This document shows positions 7,413-64,000 of a stretch of DNA of 64,000 nucleotides, piece after piece. The stretch is from positions 16,574,001 to 16,638,000 of the forward strand of contig CM072343.1 of assembly GCA_036874045.1 (NCBI GenBank). The letters run 5' to 3'. The translations under genes and the position numbers were made by a program. A model generated the notes under the pieces. It worked only from the letters and a program-made list of their open reading frames with translations. It was not told where the DNA came from and searched no databases. Source of the stretch: Cymodocea nodosa. Its lineage: Eukaryota; Streptophyta; Magnoliopsida; Alismatales; Cymodoceaceae. Every line of letters starts with the position of its first letter. Within the stretch, counting starts at the first letter, position 1.

Positions 7413-9985
7413 AATTCTCGATCTCAGATGATTGAAAATCCCCAATACACTGTAGACAGGAAGAGAAGAAAAATGATAAATAAACCTTCTTCTCTTTCAT
7501 CAGGTGAGGTAAACCGGCAAATGTAAATGGCTTATATACACTTACAATTGAATCCATGGTAAACGGATCCAACCATTTACCAAATAAACAATCAAAAACT
7601 AACACTCCCCGTTAAACTGGGTAGAAAGGATTATGAATACTCAGCTTACCTAATAAATGAACAAAAACAGTACAAAAAGACTTGGTTAAAATATCTGCAA
7701 CCTGATGAACTGATATAGTAAACTGAAAACGAATATCACCTATTAAAAATTTCTCACGAACATAATGACAATCAAGTTCAATATGTTTAGTATGTTCATG
7801 AAACACCGGATTCTTAACAATGTGAAAGGCAATCGTATTGTCACAATATAAATCTGTGGGTGCTAACTGTTTTACTCCCAATTGCTCAAAAACAGCACGA
7901 AGCCAAACAACTTCCCAAACAGTAGAATTCATAGCCCAATATTCAGCCTCCGCAGAAAAACAAGCAACAGTTGGTTGTTTTTTAGGCTTCCAAGACACTA
8001 ATGAATCACCGAGAAATATTGTATAACTAGTCACAGACCGTCTCATTAATGGACATCTGGCCCAATTGGCATCTGAAAATGCTTGCAGCCTAGGGACTGA
8101 AGTGGACTTGAAAAATATTCCATGACCTGGTGCACCCTTTAAATATTTCACAACTTGAATTAAACCATGAAAATGACTCTGATTAGCACTTTGCATAAAC
8201 TGACTGAAGTGTTGTACAAAATAGGAAATATCTGGTCTTGTTATTGTCAAGTAGATCAACCTTCCAATCATCCTTCTATAAATCATTGGGTCAGGCAACA
8301 ATGGACTGTCATTAACAGGCTGAAATTTTTCTGAAATGGGAACATTCACTGGACAACACCCTAGTAAACTTGATTCATGTAACAAATCAAATGAATATTT
8401 CTGTTGCCAAATAAAGATACCTGCTAGTCCACACATAATTTCTATGCCCAGAAAATACTTCAAGTGGCCTAAATCTTTCAGTTTGAATAAGGAATTAAGT
8501 TCATCCTTTAATGTTTGTATCTCCTGTCCATTATTGTCTGTCACAACTATATCATCAACATAGACGAGCAATAGTAAAATAGAATTTCTAGACTTTCTAA
8601 TAAACAATGTATAATCAACATAAGTGTTAGAAAATCCCAAACTATATAAGGCCTGCTGTAACTTATGGAACCAACTTCGACATGCCTGCTTCAACCCATA
8701 AAGAGACTTCTTGAGAAAGCATACTTGCTCTCCCTTTGCTGCAACCCCAGGTGGGACTTTCATATAGATTTCTTCAGATAAATCACCATGTAGGAATGCA
8801 TTATTTACATCTAATTGATGAAGTTCCCACCCAGCAATGGAAGCAACAGCTAATAGACATCTAAATGTAGCAAATCTCGTAATAGGTGCAAAAGTCTCAT
8901 TATAATAAATACCTTCTTTTTACATGAATCCTTTAACTACAAGCCTTGCTTTGTACCTCTCAACATTCTCATCAGCTTTAAGTTTAACTTTGTACACCCA
9001 CTTGCATCCTATTGGCTTCTTTCCCTTGGGCAATTGTACCAACTGCCATGTTCCATTATCTTCAAGTGCACTAAACTCCTGTCTCATTGCTTCATACCAT
9101 TTGGGTTCATCTTCAGCCTCCTCATAAGTTCGTGGCTCATAGTTGTCACACATGGCAGAAAAATAAACCTGATAGTTTGTAGAAAATCTTTTGAAAGTAA
9201 CATAATTGGCAATTAGATATTCAGTATTTGTAATGCTAGTAAAGCAAACATAATCCTTCAAATAATTTGGTGGACGGACTGACCTACTGGACCTCCTAGG
9301 TGGATATTCACTAGGAGGTCCTTCATTATTTAAATTGCAAAAAATTTCAGTGCTATCAACAATATCTGAACCCTCATCAACCTCTTCATTTTGAGTTAAA
9401 TCAGGAACATCAGAAGAAGCATTTTCATCATTAATAGAGGAAGGTACTAATTGTGAATTCTCATCAGAAGATTCTTCAATTACAGGTAATTCCTACTGCA
9501 AATTATGAATATTCTCATCAAGATATAACATGTCAACATTACTTGAACACTCCCATGTCTTCAGACTATGTATAATTTTTAGCTCTTCAGTAACTTCAGA
9601 AGTATCAATCTATTCATAATTCTTCACAACACCAAAAGGAAATATTCTTTCATAGAATATAACATTCCTACCAACAAACACCTTTTTATCATCTAAATCA
9701 TACAACTTGTATCCCTTTTTATCAAAAGGATACCCAAGACAAATACATCTACGAGCTCTTTTATCAAATTTATGTTTTGTCAAATCATTCAAGGCAAAAG
9801 CCAAGCAACCAAAAACCTTTAATGTGCTATAATCTGATACCTTTCGAAATAACATTTCATAAGAACTTTTCCCTTCTAATATTTTAGTGGGTAATCTATT
9901 TATCACATATGTAGCTGCAAGAATGCAATCAGCAAAAAATATCAGTCTATTTAAGGCGATCTGTGATGGTGTCTGCCTAACCACC
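7413..9985 (-). mobile_element. Ty1/copia remnant: 3' LTR, RNase H, RT, part of integrase
   Basis: A minus-strand copia fossil that replaces the middle of the L1 LINE. From 5' to 3' on the minus strand: integrase C-terminal part (about 9990-9610, with ATYVINRLPTK), the RT region from about 9260 ([20 protein letters not shown]), a long open RT/RNase H block 8763-7612 with LLVYVDDIVV, LGHLKYFLGIEI and ADILTKSF, then a polypurine tract and an LTR beginning TGTTAG at 7604. The gag, protease and 5' LTR are missing. It has few breaks in the part that remains, so it is moderately young. Confidence 0.85.
7431..7604 (-). repeat. 3' LTR of the copia remnant
   Basis: On the minus strand it starts with TGTTAG directly after a purine tract (CGGGGAG) that follows the RNase H stop. 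The downstream end is unclear because the partner LTR is absent; TTCAATCA near 7431 is the best TG...CA candidate end. Confidence 0.5.
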
Positions 9986-41700: not shown

Positions 41701-42399
41701 TTAACTAGAAAGGACAGCAAAACCAATTCCTTCCTAATTGTGCCCATTCACCTTCAAAACCTATGTGGTCAAAATAGTCTTAAGTCTTTAATGGTCTTAC
41801 AACAAACACACATGGTCGCAAGAAAGTAGCCCCATTTCTTGGCATTTTCACCTATTGAAAGAGCTTTGTTATACCAACACCACAAAAAGAAAGAGATTTT
41901 AGTGGGTATATACGGCTTCCAAATGTTGAGATTCCACTCCCTACATTCTACCTTGTCTCTAGTTAATTCTCAAGCAAATTTAACTAAGACTTTTGTTAAG
42001 TACGAAGACAATCAATTAAACCACTAAAAACAATCAATCTTGATTGAAGAGTGTCGATCAAAACCAAAGAAAGGTTTCAGTAAAATCAAAGGCGAATCCT
42101 GATTACACCAAAGGAGAAGTGATGATTGAATAGTGAACAAGAGACGATCAAACCGAGATAAGTATCAACTAAATTGGTGGCTAGAGTTGGCAACTGTAGT
42201 AGTATTCAATAGGAGTGCAAGACCAAATATCAAGTATGAGGGACTAGATGTCTAATGCTACAATAGACTTATTAGAGTCTTCAATAATCAAACATTGAAA
42301 GTAGTAGGAAACTTTAAAGTTACAGAGGACATTATCAAAGCGATTTGTATAATGGTAGTGCACTAAATGTCCAATGATTGCACTCTCCATTTGCTTGAC
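41701..42399. other. Unassigned intron sequence
   Basis: No domain recognised on either strand. It may include leader sequence of the LTR family at 42400-42830 or a decayed upstream part of the LINE. Confidence 0.35.
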
Positions 42400-46517: not shown

Positions 46518-48275
46518 TGTTTAGAATGAAAAAGTACATAATATTAATAGTCAATAAATGGTTAATTACATAATATTTAACTTACCATATGAGAATTAAG
46601 TCATTATGTTATAATTACACGATTACATGCCTTAATTAAAGAGTATGCATAATTTCATGGAATTAATGTTAATTAAATATCATTTTTGAAAGATTAAAAA
46701 CTTGGTTTACATGTGATTTTATAGTATTAAAAATGATATGTTTTATTTGTAAATATTTATATCATGTATAGGTGCATAGTAACAACTCGTTGAGTACAGG
46801 TTTAAAAGTAAAAAATTATTATGTATCAATTTGTAATGTTATGCTAGTAAGTTTACAAACTTTCCTAATATATGCAAGTAAGTTTATGGAACCTCGTAAA
46901 GTTAGGAATTATTGCATAAGTCAACTATTAAATGATAAAGAACTACTTCTTTTTCATATTAAATGAATGTTATAAAAATATTTGTTTTATTAAACTACAA
47001 TGCTAAAAAAGGTCATTGAGTTAAGCTTAACTCAACGAGGTAAGTCTGTTGAGTTATAGTTAAGTCAACGAAGTAAGTTTGTTGAGTTACATTAACTTCA
47101 CGGACTAATTATTTTCTAATATTCAAATGTGAATAGTTGTAGAAATAGGAAATTCAAAGGAAAGCCACGATTGCATGTATCTCACAAGATTTAAATTATG
47201 AAATGAAGAAGAAATCACTATCGTTGATAAGAATGAAGAAGATTCAATTGATCATTTAGGTAGAAGTAGTTACTACTAAAAGAAGTATAAAAGAAAAAGA
47301 AAAAGAATAGAGAATGAGATGGAGAACCACGCTAACTATCGGAAATGTCAATAGTTCCCTAAAGCTCCACAACACTACCACTAACCACCACTCATCGGAG
47401 GTCAGTAAGGATACTTTTGGGATGTTAGGTCGATTTTGAGCCAAACATGGTAACTGACAACTACTATGAAGAGTAATTACGTTGCAAGAAAAGAAGTCAT
47501 TTTCACCAAACATCGAATCATCTCTCAAGAGATAGTAAAGCTACTAACCTTGGTTTTGGATTGATGCCAATATACTGAAGAGGAGATTAACTTACAAGTC
47601 TTAGTTCGTGATTCTATAGGAAGAGAGACGCATGACAGTAATTGATTAAGTTTTTAGTGGTGTAATCGCATTGCATGCAGTGACGAAATTTTTTACTATC
47701 AATAGAGAATTTTACATTCCACTTTTCGTTCATCTTTAGGAACATATCATAACAAAAACAAACCAAAAACTCATTATATATTTTTATATTTATTAAATTA
47801 GTGTTGTATCATTTGTTTTGTATTGTTAGTATTGTTGAATGTTTTATGTTTATTTCATTCCAGAAAAAAAAAAATAGTTTTACCGATTACTGAAACTAGT
47901 TTATATGCAATTCTAAAATCTTGATTAATATGGTTACTATTTGAAATATTTGAATGTTAGTGTTTATTAACGATAAATATTGTAGAAACTAATATTAAAA
48001 GCTCAATGAATGTTGTTTACATTTTGTAGAACCGTCCAATGGATGGTCGAATACCTCTATGAACAATAAATTTAATTGAAAGTTACTAGTGAGGCTCGTG
48101 GGGTTAATTTAAGTCTACGAGGGTAGTTTGTTGAGTTAACTATAACTCAATGAACTAAGTCTGTTTAGTTAGTAGTAAGTCAACGGAGTGAGTAATTCAA
48201 CACACATAAACCTATGGTTGTAAAAATCAAAATAGTATGAAATTTTTACTCAATCTCTATAAGATCGACCTGTAT
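46518..48275 (+). repeat. LTR copy A of the Athila-like family
   Basis: Starts TGTTTAGAATGAAAAAGT like copies B, C and D. It carries the shared LTR body, including CATCGGAGGTCAGTAAGGAT and hairpin clusters at 47015-47105 and 48085-48195. It ends within the GATCGACCTGTA motif, where it abuts copy B in opposite orientation. It is more diverged from B and C and shares some sequence only with D (for example CCCTAAAGCTCCACA), so A and D form an older subfamily. Confidence 0.7.
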
Positions 48276-48282
48276 GTTTGGG

Positions 48283-50135
48283 TTTTCCCAGCACTACACT
48301 AGAAAAACTTGGATTTGTTACTTCTATTTTTTTACTTAGTTAATTTATCTTTATACCTATTCTTTCTTTTAGAAGTAAACAAACAACCTTTAATACACTT
48401 TAGATATTAATTCCAATTTGTACTTTAACTGCAAGTGCACAGTATCTATTGTATCAGTGTGCAAGTACAGGTCGATCCCACAAGGAATTGCTGACGAATT
48501 TAAGAAATGTTTGATTGTGAACAATTCAAATTTATATTCAATAAGCACTCCGTTGAGTTACAGTTAACTCAATGGACTAAGTTCGTTGAGTTATGGCTAA
48601 CTCAACGGACTATCCTCGTGGACTTAAGTTAACTCCACGAGCCTATCTCTTCTTTATAATACTGCTATTTACAAAAGAATTCGGCCAATCATTGGGCGAT
48701 TCCACAGATTGTAAATAACATCAATTAAGCTTTTTAATGCTAGTTAACATTAGATTTATCATTAAGCAATATTAACATTCAGATGATTCAAACAGTAACC
48801 ATTAAAATCTTTAAGTTGTTTTGTACGAACCAATTTCAGTAAATTGTAAAATTAAAACTAACATGAAACAATCATAAAACTGCTACAAATAACATTAATC
48901 ACGATACAACACAAACAATACAACACTCAAATACAACATACAAACAAAGATAAATTGTTTTTGGTATTTTTGTTTTGATGAAATGGGCGAAAGGTGAAAT
49001 GTAAAGTAATCTCACTTGACAGTAAATACTTCCGACACTACTTGCAACGCGATTACACCACTGAAAATTTAACCACTTACAATTCTGTCTCCTCTCCCTA
49101 TAGAATCGCGAGTCCAGAATTGCAAGATGATCTCCTCTTCAACATATAGACATCAACCCGAAGCCAAGGCTAAAAGCTTTACGATCTCCTGAAATATGAG
49201 TCGGTGCTTAGTGAAAATGTCTTCCCTTCCTGCGACGCGATCACTCCACAAAGTGGTTGTCAGGCACTGTGTTTGGCTTGGAATCAACCCGACATCAGGC
49301 AAGTATCCTCACAGACCTTCGATGATTGGTGATTATGGTGGTGATACCAATGGTTGGTGTGATACTTCGGAGAATCGTCGATACTGTCTACAGAAAGCTC
49401 GATGCTCCTCCTCTGTATACACTGGCCGTCCATCGATCACACACACTTCTTCTTCTTTTTCTTCTTTTCTTTTATATTTCTTCAGTAGTAACTGCTTCTA
49501 CTTGAATGGTCGGTTGGATTTCCTTCCTTCAGATCAACGACGATGATTTCTTTCTCCCTACGCGATTGAATTCTTGCGTGATACGTGCAAACGTGGTTTT
49601 TCCTTCCAACTATCTGTTCCTGCAACCGCTACAGTGGCATATTAGAAAATATATAGTCCGTGGAGTTACAGATAACTCAACGGACTTCCTTCGTTGATTT
49701 AACTATAAAACACGTGCAAAAATAACAACTTAAGTTTATAACGCTAACCTAACGCGTTGCCTTAGTGTATTTTCATGTAACTCAACGCGTGTAGTTATAC
49801 TAACTTAAAGAGTTATAACGTAAGTAAATCTACCAGCTCTCAACACGTGTCAGTAGCAGTTTAAACATAAAATAACATTTCGAAGAGTTACAGGTATAAC
49901 TATCCGATGCTCAGATGCATTTTCGGATACTTAAGAATTTCACAGCCTGCAATTTACCAACAGTTCATAAATGTACTAAATTAACATTAATTCCCCAAAA
50001 TTAAGCAGATTCTTCAATTAAAGCATATAACAGTGCAATTATAACATAATGGCTTAATTCTCATATGATAAGCTAAATATTATGCAATTAACCATCATTT
50101 AACCGTTAATAATATGCACTTTTTCATTCTAAACA
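48283..50135 (-). repeat. LTR copy B (3' LTR of the left unit)
   Basis: About 1.85 kb on the minus strand from TGTTTAGAATG at 50135 to GCTGGGAAAAC near 48283. It is nearly identical to copy C in inverted orientation. Close to its end is the motif GGGATCGACCTGTACTTGC, of a type I recall from LTR ends of plant Ty3/gypsy elements. A purine tract precedes it at 50136-50144. Confidence 0.8.
48545..48645. repeat. Hairpin cluster in LTR copy B
   Basis: Three adjacent hairpins: CCGTTGAGTTACAGTTAACTC; CGTTGAGTTATGGCTAACTC followed by AACGG; CGTGGACTTAAGTTAACTCC followed by ACGAG. Arms of about 9-11 bp with loops of 3-6 nt. Confidence 0.85.
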
Positions 50136-50144
50136 CTTCCCCAT
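50136..50144 (-). promoter_or_regulatory. Polypurine tract before LTR copy B
   Basis: The minus strand reads ATGGGGAAG directly before TGTTTAG, the expected plus-strand priming site of an LTR element. It fixes B as a 3' LTR and the left unit as minus-oriented. Confidence 0.75.
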
Positions 50145-51913
50145 ACCTAAATTTTGCTAGTCACTTAGCAAACTAAGATCTAATTAATTAGTCTTTCAAA
50201 AAGTGCTAGAATTAATTCTTCCCCTTTTGTTTTTTTTTTTTTCTTCTGTTTAGCATAAACATATATTTTGTATGTTTCAGTAATCAACCTGCAAAGATAT
50301 TTAGAATATATGTAAATTACATACAAAGTATATCATCTTCATATAGGTGTTAATTATATTATCGTTTGTTCTTCTTTTCATCATCTGTAATCCTGAATTT
50401 TCCAATAAGTTTTTCTAAAAGAAATTTCAACAACATACAAATTAAAGTACAATCCAATTCAATCTGATTAAGACAAGTAGAATAAAGAATTGTATTTCCA
50501 TTAAACAACTTCAAAAGTCAATTCCAGATTCATATTTCAGCAATTCTAGATAACAGAAAATATACTCAATTCATAAGATATCTATATTTCACAAAACACT
50601 TGTATCTTTTAAGAACAGTATATGTTTTTTTCTTTTTCTTTTTTTTTCTTTGTGTACTTTAAAAGTTAATTTGACAAGCTTGAATCATACAAGAGCTTTC
50701 TAATGTACCCATGTAACGAGCTTTCAGTCAACAATCCAAGATCTGATTAGGATCTTAGGTTGCCAGATTTTCAAAGTCCTTTTTCAGGTCAACAATCCTT
50801 ACATACCTATATGCTCAAGTACAAAAGGCTCGAGATCAAACAAGTCAATAAACTCTCAAAGTTTTTTTTTTTTTTTCTAGAAATAAATGCACACACAAAA
50901 CAAAGCATTAATCACATACTGTATATGCACGTATTTCATTAATACAGATGTAGTAAAACACCAATCTCATATAATCTTGCTTCTATAATTTACTAAAGAT
51001 ATGAATTCATAACAATAAGCTCATACTTTATCTATAGTTTAATAAGATCTACACATAAATCATTCTACAAGTTCAATTAGTCAAAGTAAATGTATCTTTC
51101 ATCATATGTGTTTCATTTAATCTAGAATTAATATCTCAGCTCATTCAGGACTTCAGATAATTTTCTGATTAAGCATTAAATATTCTGATTTCATTTTAAA
51201 ATCGTGAAACTGTTAAACTCATGAAATTCAGAAAAATCATAAGATACTATATCTAGATTTACATAAATAATAAATTCTATAGCATCTTCTATAGCCTTCT
51301 AAATATAACATTCAAGCAGTTTATAAAAATTTTACAGTCTCAATTATCGGATAGTTACAGCAAGTTCATAAAAATTTTCAATTTCCTCAAAACTTTGCAA
51401 TACCATTTTAATTCCTTTAATTAATAAACTTACATGGCTGTTACTTTAATTACCTCCCCCCCATACCTACATTTTGCATTGTCCTCAATGTAAAAGATTT
51501 GACAATAAGTACAGTAATTGTAGCAGACATGAATAAAGTTTTGTTTGATTTAAAATTCAGGATAAGTAATTGGTTACATACCTTGTTCCATTTGTATCTC
51601 TTTCTGCATATTCTGATTTTTGATTCTGAAAAACTTTTCATTCCCAGATAAAGACAAAATATAAAACAAAATAACATTTAACAGATATTAATAAATCAGG
51701 GTCTTGTGTGGAACCCATGCTTCTATGTCTTTGGTGGCTCACAAGCAAGCCAGTTGGTTTCCCAGAACAGATACCAACAAACTGGATTGATATTTTGTTT
51801 CGTTTGTTTTTTTTTTTTTTTTTAAATGAACATGAAAACTTCAAAATTCTTTTTTTTTTTTTCTTTCTAAAAAAAATGCAGAATACACAACATTAAACAC
51901 ACAAAATCACAGC

Positions 51914-53079
51914 TTAAGAACATGATTGAAAAGTAGAAACAAATGGAATAAATGTATTAGTCCAAGCAAACTTTTTAGGCATAGTTCTTCTTGCTATTAA
52001 TTCTGTTTTAATGCAGTTCTTGTTCCTTTTTAATTTGTAAACATGCAATATATTATAAATTTCAAATACGAGTGTATTGCCATTAATGATATGTAATGCT
52101 GAAAGTGATCCTTTTTGGTTCCAAGGTAATGTAGTAGTTTCTATTTCTACATCTATTTCAATATACTCCTCTTCCCACTTCCATTCATTCATGTCTTCCA
52201 TAATCCATATTTAAAATTTCATCAGTTCATCCCACAATCTTATCAGACATAAAGTAGGATCATCTTCTTCATTATACCACATTCCTATTTGAATTTCATT
52301 AAATTTTTCAGATGGTGATTTAGCTATTTCACTCGGTACAGGTAAAATTTCTATATAATCATCATAACTGTCTATGCTCACTATGTATAAATCAGAACTA
52401 TATGCTATTGATATCTCCGTGACTAAATAGATATAACCATCAAGTATGACATGTGTTTGGTTAATTAATGATTTCTGTCCTAGATATATTATAATGTTTT
52501 CATTCCAAGATCTGTTCAGAAAATTATACACACTTAAGCGTAAATCTTCACCCCAATTTCATGTAGGTCTCCAATAATATAATTTTCAGGAATTGCAGAA
52601 TTTTTATCAGAAAATATTAAAGCTGACCCACAATTTTCAGTTGGTGCTTCAAATATATTAGGTCTTCCTATATTACATTCTTCTCCTATTATAGGATTTC
52701 TTATCAAAATCTCAGGTAATGATAAACTTGCATACCTTGGTCTCGTCTTGTATATGATTAATCCTTCATCTATCCCCATAATATGACTCATTCCTTCTAA
52801 TGTATTGGGTGGAATTCCAGTAGTTTCTTCCATAGCAAGATATCCATGGGTATTTGAACTACGATTAAATAACCTCCATATGAATCCATCTCTAATCTTA
52901 GTCATTTTTGCAGCTTGTAGTCCCTGAAAATATTTTTCTTCAATACAGTCTTTAATTTCCTTTGATACACAACACAGCCTGCACAGATCTTTAGCTGACA
53001 AGTTACTTAGTATTTCCCTTTGTGCATCCAACGGTAATTGCATCAATTCCATTTGTCGATTCAGTCCGAAGCTTTCCAT
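51914..53079 (-). pseudogene. F-box/FBA-type gene carried by the left unit
   Basis: The N-terminus shows a clear F-box, LPLDAQREILSNLSAKDLCR followed by CCVSKEIKDCI, the Skp1-binding motif of SCF ubiquitin ligase substrate receptors. Downstream blocks follow an F-box-associated (FBA) domain: IDEGLIIYKT (like CNGLLCL), ILIRNPIIGE (like WNPATGE), VYNFLNRSW, HVILDGYIYLV, YIEILPVP, LCLIRLWDELMKFQIWIM (like LCLV...DIWVMKEY) and MNEWKWEEEY. About 350-390 residues in all, normal for the class. The frame is broken about twice. It starts at an ATG that lies across the splice-like junction. It occupies the env position of the element and is interpreted as a captured host gene. Confidence 0.7.
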
Positions 53080-53352
53080 TCTATAAATATTTATTGTCGG
53101 ATGAAGGTTGAATCAGCTGCTTCTCCTTCCAGTTCCTCCAACGCTTTCTCCTTTCTCTTAAAAGTACTAGTAACTCGTAAATAACATTCTGTTTCATATA
53201 TATACTGCACATCCATAAAGTGAATAAATCTCGTTACAAGAACGTGTCTTGCACCGTGCATCGTGTTTCCTATTTTTATGGGTACGTGTACCACTACTAA
53301 TCTCAAATTTTGGTAACCGCTAAACCGACGAAGTTTCGTTTGTGGTTAAAAG
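53062..53352 (-). other. Leader exon with a small conserved ORF
   Basis: The minus strand holds a 71-codon frame (53306-53091: HVPIKIGNTMHGARHVLVTR ... ALEELEGEAADSTFIRQ) ending just before the F-box ATG. The right unit has a homologous leader at about 59690-59392, with matching segments such as LMDVHY and ELEGEAVD, directly before its donor site. No family recognised. Confidence 0.5.
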
Positions 53353-53358
53353 AATAAC

Positions 53359-55208
53359 TGTTTAGAATGAAAAAGTGCATATTATTAACGGTTAAATGAT
53401 GGTTAATTGCATAATATTTAGCTTATCATATGAGAATTAAGCCATTATGTTATAATTACACTGTTATATGTTTTAATTGAAGAATCTGCTTAATTTTGGG
53501 GAATTAATGTTAATTTAGTACATTTATGAACTATCGGTAAATTACAGGCTGTGAAATTCTTAAGTATCCGAAAATGCATCTAAGCATCGGATAGTTATAC
53601 CTATAACTCTCCGGAATGTTATTTTATGTCTAAACTGCTGCTGACACATGTTGAGAGTTGATAGATTTACTTACGTTATAACTCGTTAAGTTAGTATAAC
53701 TACACGCGTTGAGTTACATGAAAATACACTAAGGTAACGTGTTAGGTTAGCGTTATAAACTTAAGTTTTTATTTTTGCACGTGTTTTATAGTTAAATTAA
53801 CGAAGGAAGTCCGTTGAGTTATCTGTAACTCCATGGACTATATATTTTCTAATATGCCACTGTAGCGGTTGCAGGAACAGGTAGTTGGAAGGAAAAACCA
53901 CGCTTACACGTATCACGCAGGAATTCAATCGCGTAGGGAGAAAGAAATCATCGCCGTTGATTTGAAGGAAGGAAATCCAACCGACCATTCAAGTAGAAGC
54001 AGTTACCACTGAAGAAATATAAAAGAAAAGAAGAAAAAAAGAAAGAGTGTGATCGATGGATGGTCAGTGTATACAAAGGAGGAGCACCGAGCTTTCAATA
54101 GACAGTATCGGCGATTCTCCAAAGTATCACACCAACCATCGTGTCACCACCATAATCACCAATCATCGGAGGTCTGTGAGGATACTTGCTTGATGTCGAG
54201 TCGATTCCGAGTCAAACACAGTGTTTGACAATCAATGTGAGGAGTGATCGCATCGCGGGAAGGGAAGACATTTTCACCAAGCGTCGACTCATATTTTAGG
54301 AGATCATAAAGCTTTTAGCCTTGGCTTCGGGTTGATGCCTGTATGCTGAAGAGGAGATCATCTTGCAATTCTGGACTCGTGATTCTATAGGGAGAGGAGA
54401 CAGAATTGTAAGTGGTTCAATTTTCAGTGGTGTAATCGCATTGCAAGTAGTGTCGGAAGTATTTACTGTCAAGTGAAATTACTTTACATTTCACCTTTCG
54501 CCCATCACATTAAAACAAAAATACCAAAAACAATTTATCTTTGTTTGTATGTTGTATTTGAGTGTTGTATTGTTGGTGTTGTATCGTGATTAATGTTATC
54601 TGTATCAATTTTATGATTATTTTATGTTAGTTTTAATTTTACAGTTTACTGAAATTGGTTCGTACAAAACAACTTAAAGATTTTAATGGTTACTGTTTGA
54701 ATCATCTGAATGTTAGTATTGCATAATGATAAATCCAATGTTAACTAGCATTAAAAAAAAGCCTAATTGATGTTATTTACAATCTGTGGAATCGCCCAAT
54801 GGTTGGCTGAATTCCTCTGTAATTAGCAGTATTATAAAGAAGAGACAGACTCGTGGAGTTAACTTAAGTCCACGAGGATAGTCCGTTGAGTTATCCATAA
54901 CTCAACGAACTTAGTCCGTTGAGTTAACTGTAACTCAACGGAGTGCTTATTGAATATAAATTTGAATTGTTCACAATCAAACATTTCTTAAATTCGTCAG
55001 CAATTCCCTGTGGGATCGACCTGTACTTGCACACTGATACAATAGACACTGTGCACTTGCAGTTAACTTACAAATTGGAATTAATATCTAAATTGTATTA
55101 AAGGTTGTTTGTTTACTTCTAAAAGAAAGAATAGGTATAAAGATAAATTAACTAAGTAAAAATAGAAGTAACAAATCCAAGTTTTTCTAGTGTAGTGCTG
55201 GGAAAACA
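53359..55208 (+). repeat. LTR copy C (inverted relative to the units beside it)
   Basis: Begins TGTTTAGAATG right after leader sequence of the left unit (GAATAAC) and ends GCTGGGAAAACA at about 55208, about 1850 bp. Nearly identical to copy B in inverted orientation. On its right it joins the truncated 3' part of the right unit. No matching 5-bp target duplication is seen, so it is not a simple solo-LTR insertion. Confidence 0.8.
54848..54952. repeat. Hairpin cluster in LTR copy C
   Basis: Three adjacent hairpins: CTCGTGGAGTTAACTTAAGT with CCACGAG; TCCGTTGAGTTATCCATAAC with TCAACGAA; TCCGTTGAGTTAACTGTAAC with TCAACGGA. They mirror the cluster in copy B. Confidence 0.85.
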
Positions 55209-56214
55209 CGAACACTAATCTATATTCATACTTTAGTAATCATAGATAATAGAAAATATACTCGATTCAAAAGATTTCTGTATTTTCATAAAACACTTTT
55301 ATCTTTTCAGAACAGAATTTGCATATTTTTACTTTAAAAGTTAATTTAAAAGGCTTGAATCATACAAGAGCTTTTTAGTGTACTCATGTATCGAGCTTTC
55401 AATCAACAATCAAAGATCTGATCAAGATCTTAGGTTGCCAGATTTAAAGAGTCTTTTTTCAGGTCAACAATCCTTACATACCTATCTACTCAAGTACAAA
55501 AGACTCGTGATCAAACAAATCAATAAACTCTCAAAGTTTTTCTCTTTTTTTCCTTTTCAACATGGTATATATAAGTATTTCATTTATACAGATGCAATAA
55601 AACACAAATCTCATATAATCCTACTTCTATAATTTACTGAAAACATGAATCCATATCAATAAACTTATACTTTTTCTGTAGTTTAATAAGATTTATACAT
55701 AAATCATTCTACAAGTTTAATCAATCAAATTAAATGTATCCTTGATCATATGTATTTCATTTAATCCAAAAATCAACATTTCAGCTCTTTTAGGATTTCA
55801 AATCATTTCCTAAGTTACAGTTAAGCATTTTAATTTCTTTAAAATCATGAAACTGTTAAACTCATAAAATTCAGTAAAAACATAAGATATTATATCCAGA
55901 TTTGTATTAATAGTAAAATTTGCAGCATCTTATATAAGATTCTAAATATAACATTGAAGCAGTTATAGTTCTTAAAAATTTTACAATTTCAATTATCGAG
56001 TAGTTATAGGAAATTTCGGTTAGTTACACCAAATTCATAAAAAAATTTTGGTTTCCATAGAAATTTGCAGCACAATCCTAGTTCCTCTAATTAACAAGGT
56101 TACTTAGATTTAATCTAATTACCTCCCCCCATACCTACATTTTGCATTATCCTCAATGTAAAAGATTTACAATAAATACAGAAAATATTAGCAGACATGA
56201 ATATTGTGTCGTTG

Positions 56215-56275
56215 ACTTAGCACCTAACTCAACGAATTAAGTTCGTTGAGTTAATGAATAACTCCACACACTGTG
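56215..56275. repeat. Hairpin cassette present only in the right unit
   Basis: CACCTAACTCAACGAATTAA and TTCGTTGAGTTAATGAATAA lie between GCAGACATGAATA and GTGTTTGA. At the homologous place in the left unit (about 51525-51545) the same flanks are joined by only a few bases. Confidence 0.8.
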
Positions 56276-56639
56276 TTTGAATGTAAATTCAGAATTAGTA
56301 ATTAATTACATACATTATTCTTTTGTATCTCATTAAACTTCTTTCGACTTTTGATTTTGAAAAACTTTTCATTTACAAATAAAAGTAGAATATATAACAA
56401 GATAACAACTTAACAACAAAACATAAATTGTTAAATCAGTGTCTTGTGTGGAACCCAGACTCCTATGCCTTTGGTGACTCACAAACAAGCTAGTTGGTTT
56501 CCTAAAACATATACCAACAAACTAGATTGATATTTTGTTTTTCTTTTCTCTTTTTTTTCTAAAGATAAATAAAACAGAAACTAAAAGTTTTTTTTTTCTA
56601 AAAATAAATGCAGCATACACACAACATTAAAAGTACAAA

Positions 56640-57789
56640 ATCACAATTTAAGAACATGATTGAAAAGTAGTAACAAATGGAATAAACATGTCAATCCAAG
56701 CAAACTTTTTAGGCATAATTCTTCTTGCTATTAATTCTGTTTTAATGTAGTCTGCTCTCTTTTTTAATTTGTAAACTTGTAATATGTTATCAATACTAAA
56801 TATAAATGTATTACCATTAATGAATTGAAATACAGAAAGGGATCCTTTTCTGTTTCAAAATAACGTAGTTATTTCTATTTCTACATATATTTGAATATAT
56901 TCCTCTTCCCACTTCCATTCATTTAGGTCTTTCATAATCCATATTTGAAATTTCATCAGTTCATCCCACCATCTTACTAAACACAAAGTAGGATCATCAT
57001 ATTCAGTATACCATATTCCTAATTGAATTTTATCATATTCTGTAGATGGTGGTTCAACTATATCACTAGGTATAGGCAATATTTCTATAAAGTCATCATC
57101 ATAATTGTCTACGCTTACTATGTATAAATCAGATCTAAATACAACTGATATATCTGTGACTAGATATATATATCCATCAAGTATGACATATATGTTGTTA
57201 ATTAATGTTTTTTGTCCTAGATATATCATAGTATTTTTAGTCCAAGATCTAGTTAGAAAATTATACACACTTAAGCATAAATCCTCGTTCCAATTTCTAA
57301 TTGGTCTCTAGTAATACAATTTTTCAGGAATGGTTGAATTTTTATCAGAAAATGTTAATGCTGACCCACAATTTTCAGTTGGTACTTTAAATTTATTAGG
57401 CCTTCCTATATTCCATTCTTCTCTAGTGATAGGATTTTTAATCAAAATATTGAGTAATAGAATTGCATACCTTAGTTTGGTTCTGTAAATAATTAATCCT
57501 TCATCTATCCTCATAATATGATTTACTCCTTCTAATATATTGGGTGGAATTCCAACAGTTTCTTCCATATTCAGATATTCATAGCTGATTGAACTACGAT
57601 TAAATGACTTCCATAAAAATCCATCTCTAATATTAGTCATCTTTACAGTTTGTAGTCCATGAAAATCTTTTTCTCTAACACATTCTTTAATTTCCTTTGA
57701 CACATAACACAATTTGCACAGATCTTTAGTTGATAAATTACTCAGTACTTCCCTCAATACATCTAGTGGTAATTTCATCTACTGTGATT
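56640..57789 (-). pseudogene. F-box/FBA-type gene carried by the right unit
   Basis: Paralogue of the left-unit gene: the F-box LPLDVLREVLSNLSTKDLCK followed by CYVSKEIKECV, then IDEGLIIYRT, LIKNPITREEW, VYNFLTRSW, YVILDGYIYLV, ILPIPSDIV, LCLVRWWDELMKFQIWIM and LNEWKWEEEY. The upstream boundary is an acceptor-like TTTTACAG at 57790, directly in front of AATCACAG. Its frame has a few breaks. Strong protein-level similarity to the left copy despite decay suggests the sequence was once maintained as coding. Confidence 0.65.
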
Positions 57790-59391
57790 CTGTAAAATAT
57801 AAACAAAATTTAGTAGAGATAAAATTAACATAGCTACTCACATATCCTCGTGGAGTTAGGTCATAACTCAACGGACTAAGTTCGTTGAGTTCAATAATAA
57901 ATCTACGATATTACTAACTATAATTAAACTTACTTTTTTTTCTTTTTATATTTTTCTACTTACTATATTATATATAGTTGCTTCAGTTATACTACTTCAT
58001 TCAGCTTCCCTCCCAAAGGAGGTATCAATTTCATTAATAGTTCTATTGATAGGGTTAGTCACTACTTGCATTGACAATCCTCCAGTAGGTCTAAATTCTA
58101 TTGATTACTTTTGTCTAGAGGGTATATTTCTATTCATATTATGATTCTAAATGGTGGCATTTACAAATACATGGTCTAGACGATTGTTTAATTGTTGAAT
58201 TATGATTTCTAACTTCTATATTCTAGATCCTTATTCAATTAATGCTTCATAACTTCTATTTTTGTCATTTATATTTTCTCCTCCTTGGAAATTGTTATTT
58301 CTCCAAGATAGGTTCGGGTGATTTCTCCAATTAGGGTTATAAGAATTTCCAAAGTTATCTTTCTGGTTTCTAGTATAAATAATATCTAAGTCATTAATAT
58401 TTGCATTCTTTTCTGCTAGCTTTTGATTTAATGATAACTTTTCTATTTTCTTTGTTAAATCAGTTAATTTAACATCAAGCATAGTGCTTGAATCTATTTC
58501 ATGCATTCCCCTTGGCAATATTCTTTTATTTGTAAGAGCTTCAACCGAGTTTTCCCACTAAGCAATTCTTTTTGCAAAGTTTTCTAAGAAAATGCCCATG
58601 CTTTTTCACTACACAATTTTAAAAATTCATTATGACAAGTAGATTCTAATAAAGATTTAGTTGAAACATCGATGCCTTCATAAATTATACCTATTAATTG
58701 TGCTTTACTCATTACATGATGAGAACATTGAATCAATAAATCCTTAAATCTTTCAAAATATTTCTAGAATGATTCTCCCTATTTTTGGCTATACATTAAT
58801 ATTTCCTTTTTCTTTTTAATGGTTTAATGTGTTGGATAATATTCTTCTAGAAAAATAGAGTAAAATTTAGTCCATGCAAAAATTTAATCAGGTGACAAAG
58901 TATATAACCATTTCTTAGCTATCTTTTAAAGCAAAAGTAATATATCTAAGTTTAATAGCATCAATACTCATGTTTGGCATTTTCATCATTTGACAAACTT
59001 CGTTAAATTCTCTAAGGAAATAATAGGCATATTCTCTTTCTAATCCATGAAAGTGTGGCAATTGACTAATATAATAAGATTTCAGTTCAAACCTATCTCC
59101 CTCAAAGTTTGGCAATTGAATACATAAAGGTTCGTCAACTAATTCAGGATACAGAATTTCCCCTAATGGTTTTTCTACTAAAGTACTCATATCTTCGTTC
59201 TCCTTTAAACAAAAGGTTAGCTATACCCCTAAGGATTTCGTTAAAGTCTAATTCAGAAAATATTTCAGTACGCCTCTATGTTGAATAATCTTATGTAGGT
59301 GTTCTTACTAATCATTTAGTGCTAGGAGAATGAGTCCATATGCTCATAAACTCTTAACATAAAGTAAAATTACAGAAAATTAATTACATAC
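57790..59391 (-). other. Intron-like GT-AG segment containing gag
   Basis: The minus strand reads GACTG|GTATGT at 59392/59391 and TTTTACAG|AATC at 57790/57789. The left unit has the fused form GACTG|AATCG at 53062/53061 without this 1602-nt segment. The comparison is direct evidence that the segment was removed as an intron in the lineage of the left unit. It includes the gag frame and a hairpin cluster at 57845-57897. Confidence 0.8.
58231..59190 (-). pseudogene. Ty3/gypsy (Athila-like) gag remnant
   Basis: The minus strand reads ILYPELVDEPLCIQLPNFEG, then FELKSYYISQLPHFHGL, FLREFNEVCQMMKMPNMS and LRYITFALKD. These match the gag of plant Athila/Tat-type elements (pattern QPLCIQYP...FELK...LLPKFHGL...HLKEFHVVC). 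Toward the 3' end lies SYNPNWRNHPNLSWRNNNFQ, the usual NPGWRNHPNFSWRNN block. It is fossil capsid-type sequence, broken, with a few breaks. Confidence 0.75.
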
Positions 59392-59699
59392 CAGTCTAAA
59401 GTTTTGTTCTAAGTAAATAGTTGTTGACGGATGAAGTTAAATCAACTGCTTCTCCTTCCAATTCCCCAACGAATTTTCTTTTCTTTCCTCAAGTGCTAGT
59501 AGCTAGTAAATAACAAATTTTCTTTGTTCTATATTTATAATGCACGTCCATAAGGCAAATGAGTCTCGTTGCAAGAACGTGTTTTATAACATGCAGTACG
59601 GTTCCTATTTTCATGAGTACATATTCTACTTCTAATTTCAAATTTTAGTAGCCGCTAAACCGACGAAGTTTTTGTTCATGGCTAAAAGAATAACCATTA

Positions 59700-59768
59700 C
59701 ACTAACTCCACGAACTAACCTCGTTGAGTTACTGATAACTCAACGTACTAGCCTCATTGAATTAACAC
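59700..59768. repeat. Hairpin cluster upstream of the leader
   Basis: AACTCCACGAACTAACCTCG, then CGTTGAGTTACTGATAACTC with AACG, then CATTGAATTAA. Same family as the LTR clusters. Confidence 0.75.
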
Positions 59769-60195
59769 TTAGCAAATTTTTTCTAAAAACTTACTTTTCA
59801 TCTTAACTTCAATATTTCTTTTTCTATATGTCATCAACTCAAATAAAGTTAAATATAAAAGTTAGAATATGAAATTAGTGTTTTATATTTAACTTTTAGT
59901 TCAATACCAGCAATGTAGAAATTAAATTCTTCTTTTTAGTATATAGATATGTTCAAATATTATCCAATCATCGTGCATTTAACTATGTCATTCATAAATT
60001 TTTTTAAAAAAAACTTCAAATAGTTTTAACATACATATATATATAATATTTTCATTCAGTACAGTTTTGAATTAAATACTGCATTCCTATTAGAAAAATT
60101 CAACAACATATTGCTTCAAACATTTATATATATATATTGAAATGTTTTACATTACAACAAACAAATTTTATAATATAAGTAGATGGTTGATACAT

Positions 60196-60795
60196 TTAAT
60201 CTTTTTTTCTTAATTCATCTACTTCCTTCTGGAGTTTTTCTAATTGTTGCTCCAACTGATTTATACACTCTACAACTCCAATAATTTCTCCAGAAGATCC
60301 TACAACAAATGTTTCAACAGCAGCAGTCAAATAATTCCTATATTCCTTCACTGAGATGGCCTTGGATTTCGTCTTTTTGGTTGTCCATCTAGTGAAGTCA
60401 ATACTGTTTACCATCAGCAGTGGAATCAGATCTCCATAGAATAATTTTTTCTATGTTGCTCTCAACTTGGAGATAAAAACTACAGACCAGTTTAATTGAA
60501 TTCTGTTCACAACTGCATATATGGCTCATTTAACAAATTGACTTAATTCTATATTATGGCCTTGTCGTTGGTAGACATTTTTAATCAAAATGGTAGCTAT
60601 CATGTGTGCTTTACCATTTAAGTACTTCAATCTGTTTAATAATGGTACACCAGGATTGATAGCTAAACAGTTTTTTATTTCCTGATCTGTCCACTCGACT
60701 GTAGTTGTGCTCTTTAGAATTTCTTTTCCTTCATTTCTTAGTATAAAAATATTGTGGAGAAGCTCTTGTGTTATCAGTACATCAACTTGCTCCAT
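60196..60795 (-). pseudogene. Unrecognised ORF remnant just inside LTR copy D
   Basis: Two minus-strand blocks, 60795-60526 (with VEWTDQEIKNCLAINPGVPL and LKYLNGKAHMIATILIKNVY) and 60414-60196 (with FTRWTTKKTKSKAIS and a C-terminal coiled coil LEQQLEKLQKEVDELRKK). The middle block has the feel of the 'putative plant transposon protein' region found in Athila-type elements, but this is a weak recollection. Broken, with few breaks. Confidence 0.45.
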
Positions 60796-60829
60796 TTATT
60801 GTTGTGAAAAGTTAAATCAGAAACTTGTG

Positions 60830-61942
60830 TATTAGGCGATACTAGAAAACTTGTTTGATTTGTTTTTGTGCTTATATTAATAAATTCTTTTAGAAGTAAA
60901 CAAACAACCTTTCACACAAATTAGATATTAAGTTCAATTTGTATTTTAATTGCAAGTGCATAGTGTATATTGTATTTGTGTGCAAGTACAGGTCGATCCC
61001 ACAAAGATTGAGTAAGAATGGTGATTTTGGTGGTGGTGTGGAGCTTTAGGGAACTTACGATGCTTCCTGCAGTTAGCACGGTTCTCTACCTTCACACACA
61101 CACTTTTCATCTTTCTCCTCTTCTTTTATATTTCTTTCAGTAATAACTACTTCTGTTTAAATGATCGGTTGGATTTCCTTCATTTATATCAACGATGGTG
61201 ATTTCTTCTTCCGTCCACGAGTGAATTCCTACGTGATACATGCAATTGTGGTTTTCCTTCGAATTTCTTGTTTCTGCAACTACTACAGTGGCATGTTAGA
61301 AAATAAATGGTCCGTGGAGTTAGTGTAACTCAACGGACTTACTTTAGTGATTTAACTATAAAACACGTGCAATAAAGAAATAACGAGTTCAGATGTTTCA
61401 GATAGTTACAACTATAAGTATCTGAAACTTACATGCATTTTGGATAGTTAGCACCTAACCTTCCGAAAAATAACCTAAGTCAAGTTTCCAAATCATGACA
61501 CGTGCCCTTAGTAAGTTTTATGATAAAAAGATATTACGAATACTTGCAAACCTAACTATTCGATGCTTAGACACATTTTAGATAGTTAGCAGATAACTTA
61601 CCAAAAATCTACTTAAGTCATGCATTGATGTTTCAACACGTGTACTCTAGGAAATAATAAAATATTTTTAAGCATTTAAAACATAACTGTCTGGTACATA
61701 AAATGTAACCCTTTGAAATAATAAAAAATTCCGATACCTAGGAATTAAAAAGCTTATAATTCACCGATAGTTCAGAAATATACTTAATTAACGTTAATTT
61801 CCTGAAATTATGTAGATTCTTTCATTAAAGCACATAACAATGCAATTATAACATAATGGCTTAATTCTCATACGATAAGTTAAATATTATGTAATTAACC
61901 ATCATTTAACCATTAATATTATGCACTTTTTCATTCTAAACA
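60830..61942 (-). repeat. LTR copy D
   Basis: The minus strand starts TGTTTAGAATGAAAAAGTGC at 61942 and runs to about 60830. It shares the family's end motif (GGTCGATCC on plus at about 60992) but is shorter than B and C. In position and orientation it is the 5' LTR of the right unit. It contains palindromes of the related CGGATAGTTA type (GTTTCAGATAGTTACAACTA with TAAGTATCTGAAAC). Confidence 0.65.
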
Positions 61943-64000
61943 CTCCACATTGGAAATTAATCTTCTTTCCTCATCTCTTAAATTTGCATAAAAACAGGGT
62001 ACTAGATTTTTATACACTACATGCCCTTTCTGTTGAGAAATAAATTGTAATAAACCCTAGAACTCAAATAATTTTTTAATATCCTCCATACCGTCCTAGT
62101 TTACTGGTCTACTATATATAATATCAAACCCCTTTACTTCTTGATACATATTCATTGCTTCCTGACTCCATAAATGAATTTCATTCAAAATAGTTACTTC
62201 TATAGGGTTAGGAATTTAGATTTGTTACTCTAGATGGGTTTATTCTTGAATTTCCTCTTCAAGTTGCTAAGGTTGTTGTTGAAAATAATCTAGAGATTCC
62301 TATTCTTCTACTCTAAATTATTGTCGAGAGCTTGCATAACTTTCCACATTTTTATCTTGAATTCTCTCCATAAGTTGTTGAAGAGTTTCATTCTCTTTAG
62401 AGGAATTTGTCGAATTCTTTTCTTCTTGTTCAGCTTCCTGCTCAACTTCTTCTCTTTCTTCTTCCTCCTGACTACCAATCTACATTGTTACTATTCTTTC
62501 TGATTCTATGGCAAATTAGGATGGAGTCTCGGGCACTATATATTCTGCCCTAACTTCAGTTTCTAATTCTGTAGGCTGTAGACTAATTTCGGCCTGTTTT
62601 TCTTCTCCTCTTTACGTTTGCTGTTGTTGCTTCTACTCCTTAGATTCAGATAGCAGATTAATAAAAATAGTCTCTTTAGGCCTTATTGATAGTATAAGCT
62701 CAGATGTTACAATCTCCTCAGCCTCAGGCACTTTTTCTTTTCCTTTTCTTCTAATTAGTTGTATCTGTTCTTCTTATTCTTCCTTTGAGACTAAGTCTAC
62801 AAAACTAGGCATTCCAAACCCTCGAGCCACAGGTACTAGCTCTTCCTACTTAATAGTTACTGGTCTGGAAGGACTAGCTTTAGTTTCTCTTACAACTAGT
62901 GATCTAGCTACTTTATAATGCTGTTCTACTTTAATTTTATATAAGGCCTTCAACTTATCTTCAGCTCTTTTCTTGTAGAGTGCATCATAAAGTAAATGAG
63001 TCTTTGCCACAACCATATCTTTAGAATTTCCTTGGCTCCTAGCAACTTTAACAAGCTCTGTGAATTCTCTCCATTTCTCTAGCATCGATGGCCCCAAAAA
63101 TGCTGCTCTTTCTAACGGCCTTGGCGGTGGAATGGATGGTCTTAACTACTATTCCTCTATAACAGGTTTTTCAACAACCGACTCTTCAATTGCAGGTTCT
63201 TCAACTGCTTTCTTTTGTCGCTCCTAGATGTCCCACCAGGCGTGTCTTACAATATGTCTTACAAATCATAGTCATGACTTACGCCAGATCAACTCTAGGG
63301 CAACCTCATTATTTCGTCTTATTGTCCTTTCTCGATTCACAACTATCTCTATTGCTACTTTGATTCTAGTTTCTACTATCTAAGGTATTCTAATATTTAA
63401 ATTAACCAAAACTTTTCTCTAATAGAAAATATCATATTCTACCTTTTCTAATTCTTTTTCTCATGTCGTGTTCCTGATCTTCTATTGTGTATGTCATTCC
63501 TCTGATTCCTTGAGAAATCTTGTAGTGTCCACTGCTTCCTAGAATTCTGACGTCATCTTGTATCTTTGTGGCATTACTGAACAGAACGTAATAGTTTTCC
63601 GTGCACTAAGTGCTAGATGGTTCTGTGGATAATGCCCCTAATTCCTATGTTTTAGCTTAAATAAACCCTAAGTTTATGTTGGGTAATCAGGTCATTTTCT
63701 CGCATAACCTATCGCTTCTTATGTATACTACTTCGTGGAGTTACGGTTAACTCCACGAACTAACTCTGTAGACTTACCTTAAGTACTTCATTGAGTTACA
63801 GTCAACTCAACAGACTAAGTTCGTTAACTTATCTTAGACTCAACGAAGTAAGTTCGTTGAGTTAAGCATAACTCAATAGACTTCCTATAAAGTTATAACT
63901 AATAAAAATACTTATAATAATAATTTTTCAACTTTCTAGAATTTCGGTCAAAACCATTATATTTCCTCGGTTGAACCGAAATTAACATAAAATTTTTCTT
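61943..64000 (-). mobile_element. Athila-like family, second internal segment with ORF remnants
   Basis: Homologous to 44600-46517. Minus-strand frames include 63097-62846 (MLEKWREFTELVKVARSQGN, then MVVAKTHLLYDALYKKRAED) and a piece near 63420-63280 with TRIKVAIEIVVNRERTIRRN. Between 62200 and 62800 the plus strand is TC-rich, giving Glu/Gln-rich minus frames. A hairpin cluster follows at 63728-63890. No family recognised; broken, with several breaks. Continues past the window. Confidence 0.45.
63728..63893. repeat. Hairpin cluster near the right edge
   Basis: CTTCGTGGAGTTACGGTTAA with CTCCACGAA; TTGAGTTACAGTCAACTCAA; CTCAACGAAGTAAGTTCGTT with GAGTTAAG; GTTGAGTTAAGCATAACTCA. Four units, the densest array in the window. 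Confidence 0.8.

Follow-up and report, generated by a model that had tools for sequence, protein, structure and literature searches.

Could a plant long terminal repeat (LTR) retrotransposon deliver an F-box gene by splicing gag out of its RNA? The question is raised by a locus of Cymodocea nodosa in which two minus-strand units, a right one (R) and a left one (L), have a leader, an F-box gene, and a 3' region in common. We analyzed it within a 64,000-nucleotide (nt) stretch of AT-rich DNA (33% GC), here called the window, whose positions supply all coordinates below. In R, 1,602 nt lie between the leader and the F-box gene; in L, they are missing. We think it probable that R and L are decayed copies belonging to one non-autonomous family of Ty3-type LTR elements, in which a gag-removing splice led to the F-box gene and L came from reverse-transcribed spliced RNA.

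Two F-box units differ by a segment with splice-like borders

Pairwise alignment bore out the paralogy proposed in the first-pass annotation of this DNA, with identities of 75 to 90% depending on the part. The leaders (53062-53355 in L and 59392-59695 in R) are 75.1% identical over 293 positions, the F-box coding regions 83.1% over 1,104 positions, and the 3' regions 82.0% over 1,320 positions (79.1 to 90.1% in their parts). The same annotation had called the copies matched, but L and R are diverged paralogues and neither is complete: an oppositely oriented LTR stands in place of the 5' end of L and of the 3' end of R, leaving L without a 5' LTR and R without a 3' LTR. Read from right to left, R consists of an LTR start at 61942, ORF1, the leader, the 1,602-nt segment, the F-box frame, and a 3' region to 55215, and L of the leader, the directly joined F-box exon, the 3' region, a polypurine-like tract, and an LTR at 50135-48275. 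The features are as follows.

60802..61942, minus strand: 5' LTR of R, internally shortened; TGTTTAG start at 61942, 3' end uncertain (about 60802 or 60827)
60199..60795, minus strand: ORF1 of R; 199 codons, two in-frame stops
59392..59695, minus strand: leader (5' exon) of R; TATAAAT at 59539
57790..59391, minus strand: intron-like segment of R, GTATGT...TTTTACAG; degenerate gag at about 59190-58003
56649..57778, minus strand: F-box gene of R; single frame, 375 codons, two internal stops
55215..56648, minus strand: 3' region of R, truncated at 55215 by LTRinv; has an internal polypurine-like tract, GGTATGGGGGGAGG, near 56130
53359..55214, plus strand: LTRinv, a complete LTR between L and R that points the other way; flanked by ATAAC and CTAAT
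53062..53358, minus strand: leader of L, joined straight to the F-box exon at 53062/53061
51912..53061, minus strand: F-box exon of L; its aligned F-box start codon is at 53043, and the aligned frame has one frameshift and two stops
50136..51911, minus strand: 3' region of L, ending in polypurine-like GGTATGGGGAAG adjoining the LTR
48275..50135, minus strand: 3' LTR of L, TGTTTAG...CCCAAACA, 1,861 nt

The loss of the segment at splice-like borders is well established. The alignment placed the junction at the very base that had been proposed. L reads GACTG/AATCG at 53062/53061, and R reads GACTG/GTATGT at 59392/59391 and TTTTACAG/AATCA at 57790/57789. The left border is sharp. Because the sole microhomology is one ambiguous G common to both borders, with no target duplication, an insertion that duplicated its target is not supported. 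Among random 1,602-nt segments of the window, with GT..AG allowed at any equivalent placement, exact GT..AG borders arose by chance in 607 of 124,200 (0.5%), and a strong donor (one of five motifs) paired with YAG in 9 of 124,200 (0.007%). Letting the right border move within 8 nt raised the latter count to 103 of 124,000 (0.08%). Twelve of the 20 nt preceding the acceptor AG are T, a content matched by 2.1% of 7,802 AGs.

The arrangement of start codons is also consistent with splicing. In both copies, a TATA-like motif lies ~145 nt upstream of the donor position (TATAAAT at 59539 in R; the motif of L starts at 53204). The leader of R has five ATGs upstream of this motif and none between it and the donor, and unspliced R has five further ATGs within the segment before the start of gag. 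The F-box start at 57778, which lies 11 nt inside the acceptor exon, becomes the first ATG past the motif only when the segment is spliced out. The ATG-free stretch measures 146 nt in R and about 106 nt in L (to 53079); given that 4.7% and 10.6% of minus-strand windows of these respective lengths are free of ATG, it lends mild support.

With some 150 nt upstream of its TATA-like motif retained and its sequence continuing into a 3' LTR, L would have had a long RNA as its reverse-transcribed template and not a short transcript started at the motif. L is also well diverged from R and is therefore better viewed as a spliced-form member of the family than as a spliced copy of R. The earlier proposal of a retro-copied spliced RNA is retained as probable, on the strength of the GT-AG borders, the position of the F-box ATG, and the long template. 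The most fitting reading of L, or of an ancestor of it, is that of a reverse-transcribed spliced RNA.

The putative splice is retrovirus-like in form, with a donor in the leader and an acceptor just before a downstream gene. A full-length RNA would carry ORF1, gag, and the F-box gene; splicing from the donor in the 5' leader to the acceptor just before the F-box start codon would remove gag and bring the F-box frame close behind the leader. Spliced RNA would then have been packaged, reverse transcribed, and integrated by enzymes supplied in trans, giving rise to L or its ancestor, while R would have retained the unspliced form. The F-box protein would have been held by selection through much of the history of the family, most likely as an SCF-type (Skp1-cullin-F-box) adaptor in the host cell.

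The segment contains gag, and no pol was seen

A gag had been predicted in the segment of R, and Retrotrans_gag (PF03732), as expected of a Ty3-type element, matched one of its frames with E = 1.8e-13 when stops were written as X; in an uninterrupted piece, the match (E = 7.6e-4) was below the cut-off. The gag starts at 59190, about 200 nt past the donor. Its proposed likeness to Athila is tentative, no reverse transcriptase by which to classify the family having been seen in the copies. Disabling changes in R affect 11 of 396 gag codons and 2 of 376 F-box codons (P = 0.022). With stops alone, the counts are 9 and 2 (P = 0.065), and relative to codons one transition away from a stop, they are 9 of 28 and 2 of 21 (P = 0.087). 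Given that the path of gag through the frames was picked by eye, this contrast in decay is only suggestive.

No pol frame was found in R or L among the window's eight open reading frames of at least 150 amino acids (no profile search for decayed pol fragments was made), so that the protease, reverse transcriptase, RNase H, and integrase of an autonomous Ty3-type element were not seen. None of the gaps that separate the named parts of R exceeds about 0.5 kb, and the 3' regions (1.4 and 1.8 kb) have no open reading frame of 150 amino acids. L has no gag either, yet ends in an LTR. Since no pol was seen and the gag-less L is LTR-ended, the family was probably moved in trans by a related autonomous element. 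The placement of the F-box gene in the env position, as previously described, holds in form, downstream of gag, and in form only, as neither copy shows a pol; it would become literal if a pol had formerly separated gag from the F-box gene. ORF1 matched no Pfam family above cut-off, its sole match being a sub-threshold one to TolA_bind_tri.

The F-box gene diverged with apparent marks of constraint

The Pfam F-box profile (PF00646) matched the N-terminus of the encoded protein in both L (E = 1.7e-10) and R (E = 4.5e-10), and together with the four LTR starts and the gag match, it supports an LTR family that carries both gag and an F-box gene. The assignment of the gene to the FBA type is uncertain: FBA_1 was sub-threshold in R (E = 0.034 to 0.043; 14.1 to 14.5 bits against a cut-off of 21.1) and, among the Pfam profiles, had no match in the pieces of L. 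An AlphaFold model of one C-terminal piece of R reached a predicted local distance difference test score of 31 and was not used.

Searches of 5.8 billion proteins returned no homologue of the F-box protein at E ≤ 0.01 among 1,428 candidates and, with the F-box alignment as the query, none at E ≤ 10 among 5,026 candidates. This type of search finds only relatives with short words in common; when the window's Ty1/copia frame was used as a control, 6,575 of 7,955 scored candidates matched, with named plants among the 120 listed, so plants were covered. Contig scans with the F-box protein gave 1 pattern match in viral contigs and 13 in genome contigs, none of them a relative. Of two PDB searches, one gave two weak unrelated matches (E = 0.5) and the other matched F-box only protein 4 (E = 1.2) besides an unrelated chain (E = 0.66). 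Because no homologue, and thus no donor, was found, the earlier description of the gene as captured from the host is no more than plausible.

Of 376 codons, 374 were aligned without gaps, and after the four with stops were omitted, 370 were scored. The nonsynonymous rate (dN) between L and R was 0.148 and the synonymous rate (dS) 0.363, for a dN/dS of 0.41 (bootstrap, 0.30 to 0.58). When the same substitutions were placed randomly, the mean dN/dS was 0.69, with 1 of 1,000 draws at or below 0.41; these draws created a mean of 9.3 new stops (minimum, 2), and the actual in-frame stops number 2 in L and 2 in R. Three internal insertions or deletions (3, 1, and 3 nt) occur in 1,104 coding nt, versus about 17 in 1,320 nt of the 3' region (18 in the alignment, one of them an edge effect; P = 0.006). 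Both F-box genes are now disabled, yet these comparisons suggest that protein-level constraint acted while much of the divergence between them arose. Since two element copies also share the leader and 3' region, that constraint would date from after the F-box gene joined the element.

LTRs and element ends

An LTR start, TGTTTAGAATGAA, occurs at four places, all with different flanks: 50135 and 61942 on the minus strand and 53359 and 46518 on the plus strand. The LTRs have TG...CA ends, with CCCAAACA and CGAACA at their 3' ends. The 5' LTR of R, which lies 1.1 kb upstream of the R leader, is of the same family and strand as the LTR of L; it shows local matches of 81 to 90% to other family LTRs (LTRleft/LTRinv) and 75% identity over 970 to 972 gap-free columns. 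In L, a polypurine tract adjoins the 3' LTR (GGTATGGGGAAG/TGTTTAG); it is purine-rich but includes two T residues. A unit with these parts is likely an LTR element.

LTRinv is 94.8% identical to the LTR of L. We considered whether it might be L's own 5' LTR and rejected this on the basis of its opposite direction, complete ends, and unlike flanks. ATAAC and CTAAT differ, so there is no target duplication, and our best guess from the sequence is that LTRinv is the scar of a recombination between two opposite-strand elements that deleted the 5' end of L and the 3' end of R. An older truncated LTR of the same family (46518-48274, plus strand) ends where the 3' LTR of L begins; the two are 69% identical over a long match and 84% over 173 nt.

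Within the 3' regions, a noncoding, gap-free block of 223 nt (50655-50877 in L and 55330-55552 in R) is 90.1% identical. As this exceeds the identity of the F-box gene, conservation of the element is not limited to coding sequence. A second, internal polypurine-like tract, GGTATGGGGGGAGG following TTGAGGAYAATGCAAAATGTA, lies at 51457-51500 in L and 56125-56168 in R. The 44-nt block that contains it is 98% identical between the copies and in L precedes the LTR-proximal tract by 1.3 kb.

Alternative explanations

An ordinary genomic deletion in L could have fallen by chance on GT-AG borders. Deletions are common in plant LTR elements, a one-base microhomology is present, and, with up to 8 nt of slippage allowed at the right border, any GT with any AG is found in 8,613 of 124,000 segments. 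The counts given above for exact borders, and for a strong donor with YAG even when the right border slips, as well as the T-rich run before the acceptor, argue against this account, and we regard it as very unlikely. That the short form is ancestral and the gag-bearing segment was inserted into R is, to us, barely credible. With two copies, parsimony does not fix the direction of change; however, an insertion should leave a target duplication and only a single G is shared, inserted DNA seldom brings a donor and an acceptor at its ends, and an LTR element would be expected to contain gag.

An improbable but more substantial alternative starts from an F-box gene of the host that had a promoter of its own and an intron in its 5' untranslated region, around and inside which LTR elements of the family landed, and whose duplicate, L, lost the intron via cDNA. 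Most plant F-box genes are host genes, and the TATA-like motif with the ATG-free stretch in both copies resembles an ordinary promoter and 5' exon. An F-box "LTR-gene" is mentioned for Thlaspi arvense (PMC8764390). Against a host gene, the 3' region of L continues directly into a polypurine-like tract and LTR, an LTR of the same family and strand lies upstream of the R leader, the intron is filled by gag, and L still has sequence from beyond the upstream side of the TATA-like motif, which a retro-copied host mRNA would lose. It is somewhat unlikely, though the most serious of these concerns, that the element reading is right and the F-box frame inert cargo, with the selection signal the chance outcome of one comparison. 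Both copies now have stops, no relative is known, two sequences were set against a simple null, and a noncoding block is conserved even more than the gene; still, the constraint acts on divergence between element copies that share the leader and 3' region and hence postdates F-box entry.

Several observations weigh against the retrotransposon origin that we favor. The family is represented by two copies, about 17 to 19% apart in most parts, with no complete element, and the element-wide picture joins the 5' half of R to the 3' half of L by inference. The putative splicing is read from genomic sequence, and the selection test is a single pairwise comparison with a simple null. At the right border, four matching bases (AATC) are followed by 7 nt more in L before homology resumes at the F-box start, and the loosest chance rate for the borders is 6.9%. 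An LTR-started RNA in R meets ORF1 and five leader ATGs before the F-box ATG, so efficient F-box translation would need the internal TATA-like motif or other means. In L, the start of the TATA-like motif is followed after 7 and 17 nt by ATGs, and the next in the leader is only the in-frame ATG at 53079. No primer-binding site was recognized by eye in R, without transfer RNA comparison, in an old copy with an uncertain LTR end. Finally, L and R each have one end missing in the window, so that neither could show a target duplication.

Relation to known elements

Both spliced extra genes and the acquisition of genes have precedents in plant LTR elements. For Bagy-2, splicing and an env-like open reading frame are reported (PMC7264820). 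Like Bagy-2 and the Athila env class of Ty3 elements, the present family has an extra sense gene downstream of gag, and the putative splicing would be a further likeness to Bagy-2; in those elements, the extra frame is env-like and pol is present, whereas here it is an F-box gene, no pol was seen, and the splice would remove gag. Gene loss through packaging and reverse transcription of wrongly spliced RNA was proposed for Diaspora of soybean (PMC1142308), where env was lost and the splice is hypothetical; here gag was lost and a GT-AG border pair is visible. The same 2005 paper states that introns upstream of gag had not been reported by then, and describes in Ogre a 550-codon frame before gag, the same place as ORF1 of R. 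Spliced RNAs and functional introns are described for Ogre, EVADE, and BARE1 (PMC12786077, PMC3735527); in EVADE and BARE1, splicing favors Gag production, in contrast to the removal of gag proposed here.

An orchid Gypsy element with an N6-methyladenosine demethylase resembles our family in that a plant Ty3 lineage kept an additional cellular-type domain (PMC9289625). It comes from a screen of 121 genomes for acquired domains in which nine of 15 domains are named in section 12, F-box not among them; since reverse transcriptase was the marker, elements without it, such as L and R, would escape that screen (PMC9289625). TR-GAG elements also have gag without other element domains but are described with the GAG domain only (PMC11728184), and in Caenorhabditis, the reverse direction is seen, a transposase domain having entered F-box genes (PMC12062965). 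No F-box-bearing LTR family with a spliced copy was found by title or start of abstract among the literature matches listed, a scope mostly outside subscription journals.

What may be new is the combination of an F-box gene reached through a putative splice that removes gag and of genomic copies of both forms, spliced and unspliced, lying side by side. The arrangement suggests that the family made an extra protein from spliced RNA, as retroviruses make envelope. F-box proteins are substrate adaptors of SCF ligases, and viruses are known to manipulate ubiquitylation; the F-box protein P0 of poleroviruses, for one, acts on ARGONAUTE1 via the host SCF. By analogy, the protein may have been a retrotransposon accessory factor, env- or accessory-like, made from spliced RNA, selected even where gag decayed and pol was absent, and perhaps turning SCF against a silencing or restriction factor, a role that we put forward as speculative and rather doubtful. 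If the gene was indeed selected within the element, a plant retrotransposon would have manipulated ubiquitylation. Such pol-less elements would go undetected in screens that take reverse transcriptase as their starting point.

Other features of the window

Between positions 42000 and 64000, no Rfam family reached its gathering score. Ty1/copia pol frames lie at 7612-9492, the longer being 48 to 53% identical to the best 120 proteins listed, with no close relative among them. A near-palindromic motif of ~33 nt (about TAACTCAACGRACTNAGTYCGTTGAGTTA) is repeated at 47016-47089, 48551-48639, 54850-54959, 56209-56267, 57848-57906, 59703-59766, and 63788-63897. These sites fall in LTRs, directly ahead of the leader, close to the splice acceptor, and in the 3' region of R, where L has a 64-nt gap.

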